Positions 3,319 to 41,509 of a DNA stretch of 42,992 nt are shown piece after piece (the first letter of the stretch is position 1; each line of letters opens with the position of its first letter). Position numbers and translations under genes: made by a program. The notes below the pieces were generated by a model that was not told the origin of the DNA, did no database searches, and saw only the letters and a list, made by a program, of their open reading frames with translations. The DNA is from Mariprofundaceae bacterium (GTDB lineage: Bacteria; Pseudomonadota; Zetaproteobacteria; Mariprofundales; Mariprofundaceae), in contig JAUZQQ010000009.1 of the NCBI GenBank assembly GCA_030950905.1, positions 1 through 42,992 of the forward strand. The letters run 5' to 3'.

Positions 3319-4579
3319 TATTCACCCCTGCTTGCCCATCATGAAAACATACACGCAATGTTTGCCCTACGTGTAGGTCTGCAAGGTGGCTATAAATTTT
3401 TCCAGCATCATCTTGTACAATGGCATAACCACGCTGCAATACGTGCCAAGGGTTCATGCTGTGCAATTGACTGTGCAATGCTTGCCATCGCTGACGTGCA
3501 TGGACAATACGTTGTTGTACATTGGGTGCAAGGCTTTGCCGTGCATGAAACAATTTGAGGCGTTGCTGCCCTGTAATGCGTGCTGCATGGTGGTGCAACA
3601 ATTCTTGCTGACGTTCTGATTGATGATGGCGATCATCGTGTTCATGGTTAAGTGTATGCCGCAATACATCGCGTTGATGCATGAGCTGGACACGGTATTG
3701 CCCTGTTTGATGCAACATCAGCGTTTGCCATTGACGCATCATGGGGATTTTTTGGCGCAGCTCTTGCCGTGAAGGGCAACATAATTCGGCAGCATTCGAT
3801 GGCGTGGCAGCACGGAGGTCGGCGGCGAAATCAACCAAGGTGCTGTCAATCTCATGGCCAATACCGGTGATTATAGGAATACCACAATCGACCACGGCTT
3901 TAACCACAGATTCATCGTTAAAACACCACAAATCTTCCAAGCTGCCACCACCACGAACCAATAAGATGATATCGGCATCCGTTTGGTGTTGTACACGAAA
4001 GATGGCGCGAACTATCGCCGTTGGCGCGGCATTACCTTGCACCAAACACGGTGACAACGTGATTTTCAACCAGCCAGGGCGTGAGTTTAATACTTTGTAG
4101 ACATCCTGTAAGGCTGCCGCAGTGGCAGATGTTACCACGGCAATATGCTTAGGTAATGTGGGCAAACCACGTTTACGCGCCGCATCAAACCAACCACGGG
4201 CAGCGAAATGCTGCTTGCGTTGTTCCAGTGCCATCGCCAAATGGCCTTCACCCATCGCTGTAATTTGCGTGACCACAAGGGTGTACGTGCCACGGGGTGC
4301 ATACACATTAATATGACCCATGAAAATAAAAGCATCGCCTTCTTTGGGCATCACACGCAAACGCATTACCGAAGAACGCCAAACAACCGCAGAAATAGCC
4401 GCATGTTCATCTTTAATGGTAAAATACACATGCCCCGAACGGGCATTCGTAAGGCGGGAGACTTCACCGATGATACGCAAACCATGAAACCCTGCTTCCA
4501 AAAATTCTTTAATGTGCGCGGTTAATGTTGCAACGCTTAATGGCGCATCGGTTTGTATGTGTTGATCGTTAAGGTTCAT
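3281..4579 (-). CDS. xseA: Exodeoxyribonuclease VII large subunit
   Basis: XseA with XseB degrades single-stranded DNA from both ends in the cytoplasm. The 432-residue product has an N-terminal OB-fold (about 14-110), where IIGEVSRLTNARSGHVYFTIKD is the family signature. The catalytic domain carries D159, R209 in RGGGSLEDLWCF, and H242/D245 in GHEIDSTLVDFAADLRAATP, matching the catalytic residues known for E. coli XseA. The usual TSPTGAAIRD stretch reads TSATAAALQD here, so the Pro and first Gly are lost but the Asp is kept. The C-terminal part (270-400) is a His/Gln-rich coiled-coil region, as expected for binding many XseB copies. No xseB is seen in this window. Its start overlaps the end of phoU by 11 bases. 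Confidence 0.96.
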   Translation of the reverse strand: MNLNDQHIQTDAPLSVATLTAHIKEFLEAGFHGLRIIGEVSRLTNARSGHVYFTIKDEHAAISAVVWRSSVMRLRVMPKEGDAFIFMGHINVYAPRGTYTLVVTQITAMGEGHLAMALEQRKQHFAARGWFDAARKRGLPTLPKHIAVVTSATAAALQDVYKVLNSRPGWLKITLSPCLVQGNAAPTAIVRAIFRVQHQTDADIILLVRGGGSLEDLWCFNDESVVKAVVDCGIPIITGIGHEIDSTLVDFAADLRAATPSNAAELCCPSRQELRQKIPMMRQWQTLMLHQTGQYRVQLMHQRDVLRHTLNHEHDDRHHQSERQQELLHHHAARITGQQRLKLFHARQSLAPNVQQRIVHARQRWQALHSQLHSMNPWHVLQRGYAIVQDDAGKIYSHLADLHVGQTLRVCFHDGQAGVNIEQLHKNQKTEG

Positions 4580-5270
4580 CGTCTGCCAACATACGGGCTA
4601 CAGCATCGTGGTTCACATGGCGTATGTCATGGGCACGAATGATATAAATCACCATTTCTGCTACATTCGTAGCATGGTCAGCAATACGCTCTAAATTTTT
4701 AGCGGTTGCAGAAATCATGATGGAGTTGCTAATATCGCGTGGGTCTTCCATCATGTAGGTTAATGCTTCGCGGTACAATGCCTTGTATAAATCATCCACC
4801 CGCCGATCGTTTTTGATCACATCCATCGCCAAATCAACATCGTTGCGAGAGAAAGCATCCAGCGCATTGCCCACTTGTTGTAGAACACGCTCATGCATCA
4901 CTTCAAGGTTTGAGTAATGGCGCGGAAATATATGGATGTTTTGCAACACTTGTTCGGCAATTCCCTTGGTTAAATCACCCATTCGCTCAAGATCAGTGAC
5001 CACCTTGCTCGCCCCCATAATGGCGCGAAAATCACGGATGACGGGTTGGCGACGAACCAAAATATCACGAATCAATTCATCGCAGCGAACTTCTAAGGCA
5101 TTAATGACTGCATCATCTTGAATGACGGATTCTGCCAAATCTTCGTCATGTTCAAGCATTGCCTGCATGGCATTTCGAATCGCTTTTTCGACCATTCCCC
5201 CCATCAACAATACGTATTCACGCACTTTGCCCAATTCTTGGTCAAACTTTCGCATGGTATGTTGTGCCAT
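4569..5270 (-). CDS. phoU: Phosphate-signalling protein PhoU
   Basis: A 233-residue protein of typical PhoU length, made of two repeated three-helix bundles. Each half carries the acidic metal-binding type motif: TDLERMGDLTKGIAEQ near residues 90-105 and KNLERIADHATNVAEMVIY near 190-208. PhoU couples the PstSCAB phosphate transporter to the PhoR kinase, repressing the Pho regulon and limiting phosphate uptake. Here no pst or pho genes adjoin it, which is unusual because phoU commonly closes a pst operon. It starts directly next to the hflX stop codon (no intergenic base) and overlaps xseA, so it appears embedded in the housekeeping block. No separate promoter is evident. Confidence 0.95.
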   Translation of the reverse strand: MAQHTMRKFDQELGKVREYVLLMGGMVEKAIRNAMQAMLEHDEDLAESVIQDDAVINALEVRCDELIRDILVRRQPVIRDFRAIMGASKVVTDLERMGDLTKGIAEQVLQNIHIFPRHYSNLEVMHERVLQQVGNALDAFSRNDVDLAMDVIKNDRRVDDLYKALYREALTYMMEDPRDISNSIMISATAKNLERIADHATNVAEMVIYIIRAHDIRHVNHDAVARMLADDEP

Positions 5271-6542
5271 CTACCACACTTCATCTTTTTTTATACAGCC
5301 CAATGCCGTCGCATAACGCAGCGGTAATTGCACCGTCATCTGTATGTATTCATCGTCCGTTTGTTGGGCGATAACCACACCTTTTTCATGGCACAGCGCC
5401 AAGGTTCGACCATCACTTACTGGGATTTTCAGCGTATAAGTGGGCATACTTTTTTGTAACCACCGTTGCAACAATGCTTGCAAATCTTCAATACCACGGC
5501 CATCAAGTGCCGACAGTGCCAAGCGACTTCCGTGAATGTTTTCTGTAATATGGGATGTTACATGCGGCGTTAAATCACATTTGTTTAAGACTTCGACAAC
5601 GATGGGCATACCATCACCTTGCAGCCCCATTTGTTCCAAGGTTTGTTCAACCACTTGTTTTTGCATGGTTGCTTCAGGGTCAGCAATATCACGAACATGA
5701 AGAATAAGGTCGGCCTCCACCACTTCTTCTAATGTGGCGCGAAAAGCATTCACGAGTTCATGGGGAAGGTCTTGCACAAAACCAACCGTATCGGACAACA
5801 TTAATGATAAACCGTTGGGCAGTTCTAATTTGCGCAAGGTAGGGTCAAGCGTGGCAAACAATTGATTGGCCACATGCACATTGGATTGACACAAGCGATT
5901 GAACAATGTGGACTTTCCTGCATTGGTATAACCGACCAATGCCACGGTCTGCACGGCATTTCGCTCGCGCCCAGCCCGTTGCGTAGCGCGCATTTTGCGC
6001 ACTTGCTTTAAATCTTTTTCCAAACGCTGAATACGATCACGGATCATGCGACGATCCAACTCAATCTGCCGCTCTCCAGGGCCACCTAAAAAACCATGGC
6101 CACCCCGTTGCCGTTCCAAATGTGTCCAAGAGCGCACCAAGCGTCCCAATTGATAATTTAAACTCGCCAATTCTACTTGCAACCCACCTTCACGGGTACG
6201 CGCACGACTGGCGAAAATTTCTAAAATCAAACCCGTTCGATCCACGACTTTCACCGACCATGCAGTTTCTAGGTTGCGCTGTTGCACTGGCGATAATTGA
6301 TGATCAACAAAAGCAACATCAGCCTCTTCTGCGACAATAAAATCACCAATCTGTGTGACTTGACCTGCACCAAACAGGGTGCTGGGAACAATTTGTCGAA
6401 TGTTCATTTCTTGACCGCCCACCCGTTCACAATGGCTCGCTGCAACAAGTTGTTCAAATTCATTGCGTCTCGCCAGCCACGCACTATCAACACGAGCAGA
6501 ACTCGGAAGACGCGGATGAATGCTGACCGCTCGATCAGCAAT
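5271..6542 (-). CDS. hflX: Ribosome-associated GTPase HflX; start codon probably non-canonical
   Basis: HflX is a GTPase that splits stalled or heat-damaged ribosomes. The product contains the HflX glycine-rich signature (LVRSWTHLERQRGG...FLGGPGERQIELDRR), Walker A GYTNAGKST, G3 DTVGF and G4 NKCD. The first ATG/GTG/TTG in frame is a GTG at 6420-6422 (383 residues). That would remove about 40 residues that read like a normal HflX N-terminus, including RAVSIHPRLP and EFEQLVAAS aligned to the family pattern RALLV...EFESLV. The frame remains open back to 6617 with no ATG, GTG or TTG in it. The extension to an ATT codon at 6540-6542, six bases after the miaA stop, would give 423 residues, close to the 426 of E. 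coli HflX. I annotate this longer form as inferred; ATT or CTG initiation, or coupling to miaA, is the open point. Confidence 0.88.
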   Translation of the reverse strand: MADRAVSIHPRLPSSARVDSAWLARRNEFEQLVAASHCERVGGQEMNIRQIVPSTLFGAGQVTQIGDFIVAEEADVAFVDHQLSPVQQRNLETAWSVKVVDRTGLILEIFASRARTREGGLQVELASLNYQLGRLVRSWTHLERQRGGHGFLGGPGERQIELDRRMIRDRIQRLEKDLKQVRKMRATQRAGRERNAVQTVALVGYTNAGKSTLFNRLCQSNVHVANQLFATLDPTLRKLELPNGLSLMLSDTVGFVQDLPHELVNAFRATLEEVVEADLILHVRDIADPEATMQKQVVEQTLEQMGLQGDGMPIVVEVLNKCDLTPHVTSHITENIHGSRLALSALDGRGIEDLQALLQRWLQKSMPTYTLKIPVSDGRTLALCHEKGVVIAQQTDDEYIQMTVQLPLRYATALGCIKKDEVW

Positions 6543-6547
6543 AGATG

Positions 6548-7459
6548 TTAATGTTTCGGTATCGTATGTGATAATAAATAGTCCCCAATAACGGCAGTGT
6601 CGCCGATAATATCGGCATCAAGTTGATGGCGAAACCATGTTTCTTGTCGCTTGGCATAACGCCGTGTTGCCGTGATGCCATCGGCAATCGCTGTGGCTTT
6701 ATCGCATGTTCCCGCAAGATAATCCAAGCATTGGCGATAACCAACGGCGCGTTTGCTTGGGTGTTTGCCATCACAGGCGGAGTTTTTAAGCATGGACACT
6801 TCATCCAGCCAACCCATGTCCATCATTTGGTGAAAACGCACAGCCAAGTCATCGCGCAATTGAATGCGCGGCTTTTGTAACCACAACAGCGTACAATGAA
6901 TGGGTGGCAAAAGATTCTCTTTTTGCTGCCAAACACTCAAAGCAATGCCTGTCGCTTCAAAAACAGTCAAAGCCCGCAATACACGTTGACCATCACCCTT
7001 TGCCAAGCGAGCAGCCGTCGTGGCATCCACCTTTTGCAAGATAGCATGCATGGCGGCATGGCCTTCTGTTTCTAGTCGTTCGTTAAAGTGTTTGCGAATG
7101 GCTGCGTCCACAGAAGGAATATCAGCAATGCCTGACAATAAGGTGCGCAAATAAAACCCTGTGCCACCACAAATCAAGGGGGTGCGTCCCGCAATGTTTT
7201 CGCTGGCAATGCAATCCCGCGCAGCACGCGCCCAGTCAGCCGTGGAATAGACGTGGGGTAAATCAACACAATCAAGCAAAACATGGCGCGCCCGTGTTTG
7301 TTCTGCCTGTGTTGCTTTTGCTGTGCCTATGTTTAAACCTTTGTAGACCTGCATTGAGTCACAGGTAATAATGCAATTGCCCGTTTGTTCTGCCCAAGAT
7401 TGTGCCAATGCAGACTTCCCCGTTCCTGTTGCACCCACCAAGGCCATTGCTTTTAGCAT
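6548..7459 (-). CDS. miaA: tRNA dimethylallyltransferase
   Basis: MiaA transfers a dimethylallyl group to N6 of A37 in tRNAs reading UNN codons. The 303-residue product starts MLKAMALVGATGTGKSA, with the P-loop at residues 9-17. It continues with the substrate-binding CDSMQVYKGLNIGTAK and GGTGFYLRTLL. The frame is open 26 codons further upstream, but that extension overlaps ilvA and has no family similarity. The ATG at 7457-7459 has AAGGA about 10 bases ahead and gives the normal MiaA length, so I chose it. It lies 13 bases downstream of ilvA. In many proteobacteria miaA is followed by hfq and hflX; here hfq is missing and hflX follows directly. Confidence 0.96.
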   Translation of the reverse strand: MLKAMALVGATGTGKSALAQSWAEQTGNCIITCDSMQVYKGLNIGTAKATQAEQTRARHVLLDCVDLPHVYSTADWARAARDCIASENIAGRTPLICGGTGFYLRTLLSGIADIPSVDAAIRKHFNERLETEGHAAMHAILQKVDATTAARLAKGDGQRVLRALTVFEATGIALSVWQQKENLLPPIHCTLLWLQKPRIQLRDDLAVRFHQMMDMGWLDEVSMLKNSACDGKHPSKRAVGYRQCLDYLAGTCDKATAIADGITATRRYAKRQETWFRHQLDADIIGDTAVIGDYLLSHTIPKH

Positions 7460-13290: not shown

Positions 13291-13296
13291 AGGAGG
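13291..13296 (+). promoter_or_regulatory. Strong Shine-Dalgarno for the Bro-N/DinD-like gene
   Basis: AGGAGG four bases before the ATG at 13301; it fixes the start and is stronger than most ribosome binding sites in the window. Confidence 0.6.
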
Positions 13297-13300
13297 TAAT

Positions 13301-14119
13301 ATGGATCAAAAAAATAAAATTCAACTGTTTCAAGACCAAGCTATCAGAACCCACTGGGATGAAAATAAGGAAGTTTGGTATTTTTCTGTTCAGGATATAG
13401 TGCAAGTATTATCAGAAAGTAAAGATACAAAACAATATATTAAAAAAATGAAATCTCGTGATTCTGAGTTAAATAGCAACTGGGGTACAATTTGTACCCT
13501 GGTTAAAATGATTGCAGAAGATGGTAAATTTAGAAACATACAAGCATCAGATACAGAAGGAATTTTTCGCATAATTCAATCAATTCCATCACCGAAAGCA
13601 GAACCCTTTAAACGGTGGCTGGCAAAAGTGGGGGCAGAAAGAATTGAAGAAACCGAAGATCCTGAACTCGCTTTTGACAGGGCAATGGCAACTTATTTGA
13701 AAAAAGGCTATTCTAAAGATTGGATTAATCAACGTCTAAAAAGTATAGAAGTTAGAAAAGGGCTAACCGATGAATGGCAAGAAAGAGGCGTTAAAGAAGG
13801 TTTAGAATATGCCATTTTAACCAATGAAATTACCCAAGCATGGGCGGATAAATCAGTAAAAGATTACAAAAAACTCAAAGGGCTGAAAAAAGAGAGTCTG
13901 CGAGATAATATGTCCAACCTTGAATTGGTGCTAAATATGTTAGCCGAAGTCTCCACCACTGAAATATCCAAACAACAACAGCCCGGTAGTCTGGAGGAAA
14001 ACAAAAACGTGGCGCGCAAAGGCGGCACAGTGGCTAAAAAAGCACGGGTCGAGATTGAAAAGCAGACGGGTAAGCCGGTTCTTAGCAATCAAAATACAAA
14101 AAAAATATCGGGTGATTAA
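13301..14119 (+). CDS. Bro-N domain protein with DinD-like C-terminus
   Basis: A 272-residue protein. Residues 5-115 resemble the Bro-N domain of phage antirepressors (WYFSVQDIVQVLSESKDTKQYIKKMK, then FRIIQSIPSPKAEPFKRWLAKVG). The C-terminal half (about 140-272) resembles the DNA-damage-inducible DinD group (LKGLKKESLRDNMSNLELVL and VARKGGTVAKKARVEIEKQTG). DinD in E. coli is LexA-regulated and affects RecA filaments; whether that role holds here is unknown. No LexA-type operator was recognised in the short upstream gap. The gene is inserted between a kinase and ggt, in an AT-richer stretch, and no integrase or other phage gene adjoins it. It may be a stand-alone acquired gene or a remnant. 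Confidence 0.8.
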   Translation: MDQKNKIQLFQDQAIRTHWDENKEVWYFSVQDIVQVLSESKDTKQYIKKMKSRDSELNSNWGTICTLVKMIAEDGKFRNIQASDTEGIFRIIQSIPSPKAEPFKRWLAKVGAERIEETEDPELAFDRAMATYLKKGYSKDWINQRLKSIEVRKGLTDEWQERGVKEGLEYAILTNEITQAWADKSVKDYKKLKGLKKESLRDNMSNLELVLNMLAEVSTTEISKQQQPGSLEENKNVARKGGTVAKKARVEIEKQTGKPVLSNQNTKKISGD

Positions 14120-38266: not shown

Positions 38267-38578
38267 CTACGGATTATGGTGACTATTTTTTGTATTGTAC
38301 TCTCGATAATACGACAGTGCCTGAAGAAAATCATTCTCCAATAGGGAAACCAAAGCAAGTCCTTTAATGGCATCCTGACATTCGTGTTGAATTTTAAGTG
38401 ACGCTTTAAAAAAATGTCTCGATTGTGCCAGTTCTTTGCTCTTCAACGCTGCATAGCCATGAGAAATCAGCAATGACAAGCGAAACTGCAAATCGCCGAT
38501 CATTTTCAGATCGGAGCCGCAACGATTGCATTGCACGGCAGTATCATCCGCAGGACGATTGCAGGTGGGACACTTCAC
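38267..38578 (-). CDS. Zinc-ribbon protein with helical (TPR-like) tail, partner of the Hsp70
   Basis: A 103-residue protein starting MKCPTCNRPADDTAVQCNRCG, where C3, C6, C17 and C20 form a double CxxC zinc ribbon. Residues 28-98 are helical and look like two TPR-type hairpins (ALKSKELAQSRHFFKASLKI, then LALVSLLENDFLQALSYYREY). Its ATG overlaps the Hsp70 stop (ATGA), so the two proteins are probably made together in fixed ratio. Zinc ribbons plus TPRs suggest a client- or Hsp70-binding adaptor, which is inference. No named family is recognised. Confidence 0.8.
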   Translation of the reverse strand: MKCPTCNRPADDTAVQCNRCGSDLKMIGDLQFRLSLLISHGYAALKSKELAQSRHFFKASLKIQHECQDAIKGLALVSLLENDFLQALSYYREYNTKNSHHNP

Positions 38579-40326
38579 CGAGCACTATCCAGATAGAAAA
38601 GAAGCTCTTCGAGTTCATCAACGTGAGCTTGCAATGACTCAACAGGGGCTTTGTTGCTTATTTCTGTCTCAAGTTGTTGAATCAGATCTTCTGTCTCTTT
38701 GGTATCAACATCATCCATTTTTGATTTCAACATTTCAGCTTTCTTGATGAGCGTGTGAATGGTATCGTACTGAACATCATCGGTTTCGGTGTTCTCATCG
38801 TCAAGCTCTCCACTAAACCATTTAGCGAGACGTTTTTTTGCTGCTTGTAGCGCATCAGAACTTAGTTGTCCCAATGATTTTTCGATCTCTATCTCTTTGG
38901 AAAGACCCGTTTCCTTTTCAGTAACCTGAAGGTGAAGAATGCCATCAAGATCAAGGGTCATATGAAAGACCAATTTATTACCCTCATCCGCCTCTTCGTC
39001 CAAGTTGTTAATGAGAAAGTCGCCGAGTAAAATATTCTCTCGTGCATCTTCATTTTCACCTTGAAGGACAGTGATCTTCGCCGATTTTTGACCATCGTAG
39101 GCAGTATAGAAGGTGCTCGACTTTGAGCAGGGTAGTGGTGTTCCAGCCATAATAATCGGGCAATATTTGTAAGGAACTGAATGACCATTGATAAAGCCAA
39201 GTGCTGAAGTACCAAAGGTATAGGGGGTAATATCCACCAGTATCCGTCGATTGTCTGCTCCCATCAGCCGGGCAGCCATGACACCTGCGCCATAAGCTAC
39301 AGCCAAATCAGGGTGGATATCCGTACGGGGTTTAATAGCAAACTCTTCCTCAAGCATTTTGCTGATCGCTGGTATACGGGTAGAACCGCCAACCAATAAA
39401 ATCTCATCAAGATCAGCAATGGATACCTTCGCCTCTGCCAGTGCCTTGTGAACGCTGTTGAGCGTTTTTATCAGCAATGGCTGAATTAACGAATCTAAAT
39501 CTTCGCGGGTAAATTCAGTTTCAAAGTGAAGGGTCTGATTATCTTTGCTGGTAAGGTTATCTTCGATGATAGAAGTAAAATCACTTGATGAGAGTTTCAC
39601 TTTTGCCAACTGCGCAGCCCGATTTAGTCGGTTTGATGCTAGGTGAGTTAGGTCAAATGATTTTTCATCATTTTGATGATGCAGCAGGTTGTATAGCTCG
39701 TCCTGCAATAGCTGATCCACATCATCACCGCCGAGCTTCGTATCGCCATGGCTACCAATCACCTCAACCAGATCACCCTCCATGCGCACAATAGAGACAT
39801 CAAACGTGCCCCCACCCAAATCAAATGCCATGACGATTTTTTGTTTCTCTGATTCATGCTCAAAAGCCATGCAGGCAGCCGTTGGCTCATTAACAATGCG
39901 CACAACTTCCAATCCAGCAATCTCACCTGCATCACGTGTTGCCTGTCGTTGCTGATCGGAAAAATAGGCTGGTACGGTAATGACGGCTTTGGTTACAGCT
40001 TGCTGCAAATAAGCTTCAGCTTGCTCTTTCAAACAGCGTAAAATTGCAGCCGAAATCTCCTGTGGGGTGAATGTTTGATCACCCAATGGCACGGTAATAT
40101 TTTCGCCCATTTTCCGCTTGATTGATTTAATTGTACGCTCTGGATGTAGAATATATTGATTATAAGCTTGGATACCTACAATCATTTTTCCATCGTCATC
40201 CAACCCTACTACAGAGGGTAGCATACTCCTTCCATCGGTTTCGATGATTTTAATCTCTTTATCAAGTACCACAGCTACTTCACTGTTGGTTGTTCCCAGG
40301 TCAATGCCGATAATTATATCATTCAT
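38575..40326 (-). CDS. Hsp70-family chaperone with short lid (HscC/DnaK-like)
   Basis: A 583-residue Hsp70. The nucleotide-binding domain (1 to about 360) has all three Hsp70 signatures: IGIDLGTTNSEVAVV (6-20), AFDLGGGTFDVSI (167-179) and ILLVGGSTRIPAI (309-321). The linker region reads RILVDITPYTFG in place of the DnaK VLLLDVTP. A beta substrate-binding domain (about 370-500) includes GTPLPCSKSSTFYTAYDGQ. The helical lid is short (about 500-583), and the acidic DnaK tail is absent. HscC of E. coli, also short (556 residues), is the closest idea; the housekeeping DnaK is about 640. It sits with GrpE-like and J-like genes, so it is likely a specialised chaperone. Confidence 0.93.
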   Translation of the reverse strand: MNDIIIGIDLGTTNSEVAVVLDKEIKIIETDGRSMLPSVVGLDDDGKMIVGIQAYNQYILHPERTIKSIKRKMGENITVPLGDQTFTPQEISAAILRCLKEQAEAYLQQAVTKAVITVPAYFSDQQRQATRDAGEIAGLEVVRIVNEPTAACMAFEHESEKQKIVMAFDLGGGTFDVSIVRMEGDLVEVIGSHGDTKLGGDDVDQLLQDELYNLLHHQNDEKSFDLTHLASNRLNRAAQLAKVKLSSSDFTSIIEDNLTSKDNQTLHFETEFTREDLDSLIQPLLIKTLNSVHKALAEAKVSIADLDEILLVGGSTRIPAISKMLEEEFAIKPRTDIHPDLAVAYGAGVMAARLMGADNRRILVDITPYTFGTSALGFINGHSVPYKYCPIIMAGTPLPCSKSSTFYTAYDGQKSAKITVLQGENEDARENILLGDFLINNLDEEADEGNKLVFHMTLDLDGILHLQVTEKETGLSKEIEIEKSLGQLSSDALQAAKKRLAKWFSGELDDENTETDDVQYDTIHTLIKKAEMLKSKMDDVDTKETEDLIQQLETEISNKAPVESLQAHVDELEELLFYLDSAR

Positions 40327-40365
40327 CTATTTATCCACGCTCCTTATCTCTTGTAACGGTTACCT

Positions 40366-41073
40366 TTACTTAGACTGCTCTACGACAACTTCGGCTGTAC
40401 GAATAAGTTCACCATCCAGAAGGTAGCCTTGATGCAGTACCTCCGTAACCGTATTATCTGGTGCATCCGTCTGACTTGTGTGCATCACTTGCATATGCAC
40501 AGCGTTAAAACATTCGCCTGTTTTAGCAACCTCTTCAAGTTTAATCTGACGCATCAGATCATTTACCTTTCCGTCAAGCAAACCAAGCGGCACAATGAGA
40601 TCTTTAAGCGCTCTTTTTCTTGAAGATGGTGTGATCAAAATGGGCAGCTTGACTTGCTCCATGCTATTGGCTGTGCGTTTAATTGCTGCCAAAATCTCAA
40701 AAAAGTTTTCAATACTTTGGCGTTTTACCTCTTTTCGAATCTGAGGAAGTTTCTCTCGCACAACCGTTTCTAGGGCATCAATTGATTGCCTGTTTTTGGT
40801 TAAATCTTCAGAGACCTGCGTAACAATCGGTGCTAGCTTGCCTGCTGTGCGGGCTTGAATCTTCACCTCTTGGCGTAGTGCTGTGAATTCTCGCAGCAAT
40901 GTTCCAAGATCAGGCTCCTGAACTAGGGGCGTGGTTGATTCAGGAATTTTATCAATGTCATCTAACCATTGTGCGAAGTTATCGAGAAGATCTTTTTTCC
41001 ATTTAGCATGGTTCGTGGCGGACTCAGGTTTTGGAAGAGAATTTTTCATTCCAAACAGCTGTCTCCAATTCAC
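40366..41073 (-). CDS. GrpE-like nucleotide exchange factor (divergent)
   Basis: A 235-residue protein starting with GTG, which has AAGGAG seven bases upstream. The middle (about 60-150) is a long coiled-coil/helical region as in GrpE. The C-terminal head keeps the GrpE signature around TEVLHQGYLLDGELIRTAEVVVEQ, and IVPLGLLDGKVNDLMR resembles the helix before it. The N-terminal 55 residues (MNWRQLFGMKNSLPKPESATNH) are unlike housekeeping GrpE. It would recycle ADP from the adjacent Hsp70. Overall similarity to canonical GrpE appears low, so exclusive use by the neighbouring Hsp70 is plausible but unproven. Confidence 0.82.
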   Translation of the reverse strand: MNWRQLFGMKNSLPKPESATNHAKWKKDLLDNFAQWLDDIDKIPESTTPLVQEPDLGTLLREFTALRQEVKIQARTAGKLAPIVTQVSEDLTKNRQSIDALETVVREKLPQIRKEVKRQSIENFFEILAAIKRTANSMEQVKLPILITPSSRKRALKDLIVPLGLLDGKVNDLMRQIKLEEVAKTGECFNAVHMQVMHTSQTDAPDNTVTEVLHQGYLLDGELIRTAEVVVEQSK

Positions 41074-41103
41074 TGTGTTACTCCTTTTGGGGAAATATAA
41101 ACA

Positions 41104-41391
41104 TTATTTCAATTCTTTAAGCCAAATGCACATGGGAATAATAACCATCTCTTCATCTGGTTCAGGAAAAAGATCAGCAATGCTGTTTTCATCGCCATTG
41201 GGCAATCCGAACAGTTTCAACGCAGAGCGCGTCTCCTTGCTGTTGACCAGAGAGTAAGCCTGCTGAATTGCAGAAAATCGTTTGCCATTTTTTTCTGGAG
41301 GATACTGCTGAACCTTTTGCACATAGGCCTGACGAACCTGTTCATCAGTTGCATTTTCAGCGATATCAAGCGTTAAATAGGGCCATTCCAT
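41104..41391 (-). CDS. J-domain-like protein lacking the HPD motif
   Basis: A 95-residue protein. Residues 3-60 follow the J-domain pattern (YLTLDIAENATDEQVRQAYVQKVQQYPPEKN, then RFSAIQQAYSLVNS). The invariant HPD tripeptide, needed to stimulate Hsp70 ATPase, reads Y30-P31-P32. The remaining 35 residues (AALKLFG onward) have no Gly/Phe or zinc-finger region. The order J-like, GrpE-like, Hsp70 with short gaps (30 and 39 bases) makes an operon very likely. It might be a regulatory J-like protein or a form that docks to Hsp70 by other contacts. Confidence 0.8.
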   Translation of the reverse strand: MEWPYLTLDIAENATDEQVRQAYVQKVQQYPPEKNGKRFSAIQQAYSLVNSKETRSALKLFGLPNGDENSIADLFPEPDEEMVIIPMCIWLKELK

Positions 41392-41509
41392 ATTACATTA
41401 AACCTCAGTATTTTTTTTATCTAAGCGTTGCAGCAATAATTACATAGAACGACCATGTGCCTGCGCCTTGATGACGAAAAAAACATGCATTATTTTTTAT
41501 CTTTGTAGA

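Follow-up and report, generated by a model that had tools for sequence, protein, structure and literature searches.

The miaA–hflX locus

The window, that is, the whole 42,992-nucleotide stretch of contig JAUZQQ010000009.1 analysed here, belongs to a Mariprofundaceae assembly of 1.6 Mb in 114 contigs that is 82% complete (hereafter G000). On its minus strand, miaA (7459–6548; TIGR00174, 235.3 bits, and PF01715), whose product ends in ...DYLLSHTIPKH and whose stop codon is the TAA at 6550–6548, is followed by hflX. The HflX frame is open from 6617 to 5271 behind an upstream TGA at 6620–6618, and when read from an ATC codon at 6572–6570, the gene spans positions 5271–6572 (minus strand) and encodes 433 amino acids plus the stop. 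The protein read in this way scored 428.4 bits against TIGR03156 (GTP_HflX; curated cut-off 216.75) and contained the domains PF13167 (residues 37–121), PF16360 (123–202), and PF01926 (209–331) in the expected order, and its top PDB sequence match was 5ady, the GTPase HflX. Its score for the narrower family NF008280 (ribosome rescue GTPase HflX) was 333.9, below the cut-off of 441. Directly 3' of hflX lies an ORF on the same strand (4569–5270), which by eye is phoU-like, and the ATG of which abuts the hflX stop codon. In many other proteobacteria, the gene order is miaA–hfq–hflX; hfq was absent from the junction in the window (6548–6572), where the two genes overlap when hflX is read from the ATC. 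Elsewhere in the window, the gene at 13292–14119 encodes a BRO N-terminal domain (PF02498), which is common in phage-type antirepressors, and adjoining Hsp70-like (by eye), GrpE-domain (PF01025), and DnaJ-domain (PF00226) genes were located at 38575–41397 on the minus strand. On the plus strand, MobB-like and MobA-like frames (PF03205 and PF12804; 25290–26529) overlap; the overlap amounts to as much as 56 bases if the first ATG, 25867, is taken as the MobA start.

The first ATG, GTG, or TTG codon of the HflX frame is the GTG at 6422–6420. The initial annotation had reported that the frame contains none of these codons between 6617 and this GTG, and re-reading the frame confirmed that the absence of a standard start is real. 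Of the 43 stop-to-stop ORFs of at least 150 amino acids in the window, none runs as far without a standard codon as the HflX frame, whose lead is 65 codons; leads of 34, 44, 44, and 50 codons come next, and all four belong to ORFs lying opposite other ORFs. Of the 4550 segments of 65 codons drawn from within ten genes of the window, which overlap and so are not independent, none lacked ATG, GTG, and TTG altogether. The lack of standard codons in the HflX lead is more than chance.

hflX start codons among relatives

We found hflX in 59 of 74 genomes of the family (E 1e-30) and compared the N-termini by their distance in codons from a (V/I/L)HP motif, of which the isoleucine of SIHP is position 0 in G000. 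The final anchor motif search placed 63 of 69 loci (60 plus nine outgroup loci), leaving L031, L063, L064, L037, L038, and L039 without an anchor; the motif demanded HP or a similar pair, so that the presence of HP in all rows is partly a result of selection. The 59 readable N-terminal rows consisted of 57 family copies from 56 genomes (G073 being represented twice) and two copies from the order. L031, from the sister species G002, the piece of which ends early, was added to these rows by hand, and the outgroup loci L062, L035, L036, and L040 were left out, as was L114 (G067), whose anchor was misplaced; another motif search gave an ATG at −16 in G067. The hflX sequences of G014 and G091 were fragments without an N-terminus. 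The two near-identical hflX copies of G073 (L084 and L093) lay on two contigs and may represent a strain mixture in the assembly.

When the start was taken as the most upstream standard codon within −19 to −12 of the motif, all 57 rows besides G000 and G002 had a standard codon 13–19 codons before it (49 ATG, five TTG, and three GTG). The possibility raised in the initial annotation that relatives start near 6422 was not borne out, their starts at −13 to −19 lying upstream of that position. G002, with 76% HflX identity, likewise had no standard start; its assembly is fragmented and 57% complete, and its HflX N-terminus lies near a contig end. In the HflX tree, G000 and G002 (the latter as a 366-residue piece) were sisters (100/98), followed by the congener G003 (100/99), which has a GTG at −14. 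Neither hflX (E 1e-20) nor miaA (E 1e-10) was detected in the 67%-complete assembly of a further congener, G001. The predicted non-standard start occurs in two of the three congeners having the gene, and the simplest reading of the sequences is that the standard start was lost once, on the G000/G002 branch, and would have been absent ever since while synonymous sites neared saturation.

The lack of a start is of consequence because HflX sequence extends 5' of the GTG. The 40 codons before the GTG had been described at the outset as a normal HflX N-terminus, a description with which profile coverage, conserved residues, and synonymous change all agree. Specifically, the protein read from 6572 covered positions 17–349 of TIGR03156 and matched PF13167 from model position 5, whereas the protein read from the GTG covered 40–349 and matched PF13167 from position 25, the gain in TIGR03156 score being modest (428.4 versus 416.1 bits). 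Over the 41 codons from the miaA stop to the GTG, 27 of the 41 residues were identical between G000 and G002, and the differences were mostly synonymous in the HflX frame (pS 0.82, pN 0.22); the dN/dS values in the other two frames were 0.84 and 2.5. Furthermore, aspartate at −5 was found in 43 of the 59 rows and alanine at −3 in 36 (valine in the remaining 23), with G000 and G002 having both D and A. Because these two residues are kept in both species, the start is expected upstream of −5.

Candidate start codons in the HflX frame

We consider it probable, from the comparison of the two species, that hflX is translated from the AUC at 6572–6570, inside the 3' end of miaA, yielding the full-length 433-residue HflX. 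Before the motif, the codons with one mismatch to a standard start were ATT at −18, ATC at −17, and ATT at −7 in G000, and ATC at −14 and ACG at −9 in G002, where the frame is open only from −18. Both species also have an ATT at 0, which encodes the motif's own isoleucine and is disfavoured as a start by the retention of D −5 and A −3 upstream of it. The ATC is the only one-mismatch codon before the motif that occurs at an aligned place common to both species (GGA-CTA-TTT-ATT-ATC-ACA-TAC-GAT in G000 and GGA-TTA-TTT-ACT-ATC-ACA-TAC-GAA in G002). A Shine–Dalgarno (SD)-like GGGGA (6586–6582, minus strand) lies nine bases before it, with GAGGA as its counterpart in G002. Duplex energies computed against a generic anti-SD were −5.5 (G000) and −6.0 (G002) kcal/mol at 8–9 bases, compared with a median of −5.9 for the 59 rows. 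Among 500 positions drawn at random from the G000 locus (10% quantile −6.0, 25% quantile −3.8), 10–25% paired as well as the G000 site and about 10% as well as the G002 site; the SD pairing at the ATC is therefore moderate and, alone, weak evidence. No SD pairing was detected at the ATT at −7 in G000 or the ACG at −9 in G002. The folding energies of the two start regions (−3.1 and −3.6 kcal/mol) ranked 53rd and 50th among 58 rows ordered by decreasing stability, a low degree of structure that may be explained by low G+C content.

The sharing of the ATC is partly forced by MiaA, since the codon lies within miaA codons (TTA/CTA TCA), and a zone of a few codons will, by our estimate, not rarely contain a near-start codon by chance. 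As family conservation fades upstream of −5, we assign the exact start by position, SD pairing, and sharing. The comparison supports the suggestion in the initial annotation that a rare start is used, with this ATC, 30 bases 5' of the ATT that was proposed together with a CTG, as the most likely codon.

An unlikely alternative is that another non-standard codon of G000, either the ATT at 6575–6573 or the ATT at 6542–6540, is the start. ATT is the infC start of Escherichia coli (PMC5472188), and the ATT at 6575 has the SD-like GGGGA in common with the neighbouring ATC; however, G002 has ACT at the corresponding place. The ATT at 6542–6540 would, as first described, give 423 residues and lies 40 codons 5' of the GTG. 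It is situated just behind the miaA stop, at a distance of five bases (6547–6543) rather than the six originally given, and would suit re-initiation. Nevertheless, it has no counterpart in G002, its SD energy is 0.1 kcal/mol, and its position, −7, is outside the zone of −13 to −19 occupied by the 57 other copies. The other codon first proposed, the in-frame CTG at 6476–6474, is replaced by CAA in G002.

In favour of a MiaA–HflX fusion produced by −1 ribosomal frameshifting from miaA into the hflX frame are the lack of any standard start and the position of hflX in the −1 frame relative to miaA, with overlaps of 25 and 16 bases in G000 and G002 when counted from the ATC. We regard such a fusion as very unlikely, because the slippery heptamer motif X-XXY-YYZ was not seen by eye in TATTTATTATC or TATTTACTATC and the 57 other hflX copies have their own standard starts. 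It is highly improbable that translation begins within the conserved sequence, at GTG 6422 or ATG 6407, and that HflX is short of at least 50 N-terminal residues. The GTG is where a gene caller limited to ATG, GTG, and TTG would begin, but the aligned G002 codon is not standard; in G002 a standard codon first occurs in frame as a TTG at +24, which does not align with the GTG at +33. Furthermore, the codons upstream are conserved at the protein level with mostly synonymous change, and a start at the GTG would cut the TIGR03156 coverage from 17–349 to 40–349 and drop PF13167 positions 5–24 together with the HP segment. An assembly or sequencing error that erased a standard start, or the frameshift that the initial annotation had also considered, is scarcely credible: although both assemblies are in pieces and 82% and 57% complete, a second species with 76% HflX identity likewise lacks a standard start and has the ATC, and the parts of the HflX frame that were read are intact in other respects.

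The miaA overlap, infC, and the possible meaning of the proposed AUC start

The overlap with miaA suggests how the AUC could have arisen. Among the 33 rows in which the end of miaA was found, including G000 and G002, nine had a four-base NTGA stop–start overlap (ATGA, TTGA, or GTGA; G029, G013, G022, G016, G012, G079, G021, G087, and G038) and seven had an eight-base overlap. The NTGA pairs consist of the same two genes and keep ATG, TTG, or GTG, whereas G000 and G002 have ATCA at the proposed start, with miaA continuing as far as a later TAA. A single substitution in an ATGA overlap, converting the TGA to TCA, would open miaA and at the same time turn ATG into ATC; the opened miaA would gain SHTIPKH (G000) or SHTN (G002) before the next TAA. 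Both the extended MiaA tail and the ATC could have come from this one change, which suggests a one-base route from a canonical to a rare start. In G003, the MiaA terminus (TYLWN) lies close to the same point and the overlap is 10 bases with a GTG start; overlaps of the ATGA kind therefore occur in more distant relatives, but the proposed ancestral state is not seen in the genus.

An AUC start is credible for hflX because infC, which encodes IF3, starts with ATC or ATA in this family. From the 65 genomes with an infC match, the 30 best-scoring loci were fetched and 29 were scored, of which 27 had ATC and two had ATA; the unscored locus (G064) has an in-frame ATC behind GGAGG, and the G002 gene reads AAGGAGAACACT-ATC-GCT. 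No in-frame standard codon was found upstream of the ATC or ATA in the 29 scored loci. The next such codon was 5–32 codons downstream in 26 of them, and none occurred within 40 codons in the other three, so a gene caller limited to ATG, GTG, and TTG would shorten IF3. In the 82%-complete G000 assembly itself, infC was not found. For infC, PMC5472188 gives ATC as the Streptomyces start and ATT as that of E. coli. Taken from these sequences, Mariprofundaceae ribosomes very probably already start at AUC.

The proposed hflX start resembles that of infC in being an AUN codon other than AUG, behind an SD sequence in infC and an SD-like element of moderate pairing in hflX, and IF3, like HflX, acts where ribosomal subunits are separated (excerpt of PMC9067457). 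However, the rare start of infC is kept throughout the family, whereas the one predicted for hflX occurs in two of the three congeners with the gene and overlaps miaA. Autoregulation of infC has been documented in other organisms (PMC5472188); for hflX, control by IF3 is a prediction. A second parallel is sigR of Streptomyces, which starts at GTC and is repressed by IF3; as excerpted from the same source, it is a stress-response gene whose non-standard start codon was missed by annotation. It differs in encoding a sigma factor, in its GTC codon and extensive SD (AGGAGGTG), and in having been demonstrated genetically (PMC5472188), whereas hflX has a predicted ATC start and a moderate SD. Among the open-access papers searched, we found no report joining hflX and a noncanonical start codon.

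If hflX starts at the AUC, the SD-like GGGGA nine bases 5' of it would place the 30S subunit, and ribosomes finishing miaA just downstream may aid hflX by re-initiation; a coupling of hflX to miaA is possible and would fit the overlap. Initiation at non-standard codons is disfavoured by IF3 (PMC5472188), and HflX splits 70S ribosomes, the subunits of which IF3 keeps apart (PMC9067457). Discrimination by IF3 against the AUC would be expected to keep HflX synthesis low, with HflX rising when IF3 is short, so that HflX output, like that of infC, would depend on IF3 activity. Alternatively, the weak AUC start may simply keep HflX low, or it may be tolerated because ribosomes from miaA re-initiate. 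A broader proposal, which we hold only tentatively and think somewhat doubtful, is that hflX in this lineage belongs with infC to a few genes initiated at AUC: an excess of subunits over IF3 would let AUC pass as a start, and HflX and IF3 would rise together. If this were true, the IF3 level would set the output of both an anti-association factor and a ribosome-splitting GTPase. With its probable AUC start, hflX would join infC, itself AUC-initiated in this lineage, as another gene of this type whose product acts on subunit separation, which makes a possible control of ribosome rescue by IF3 testable.
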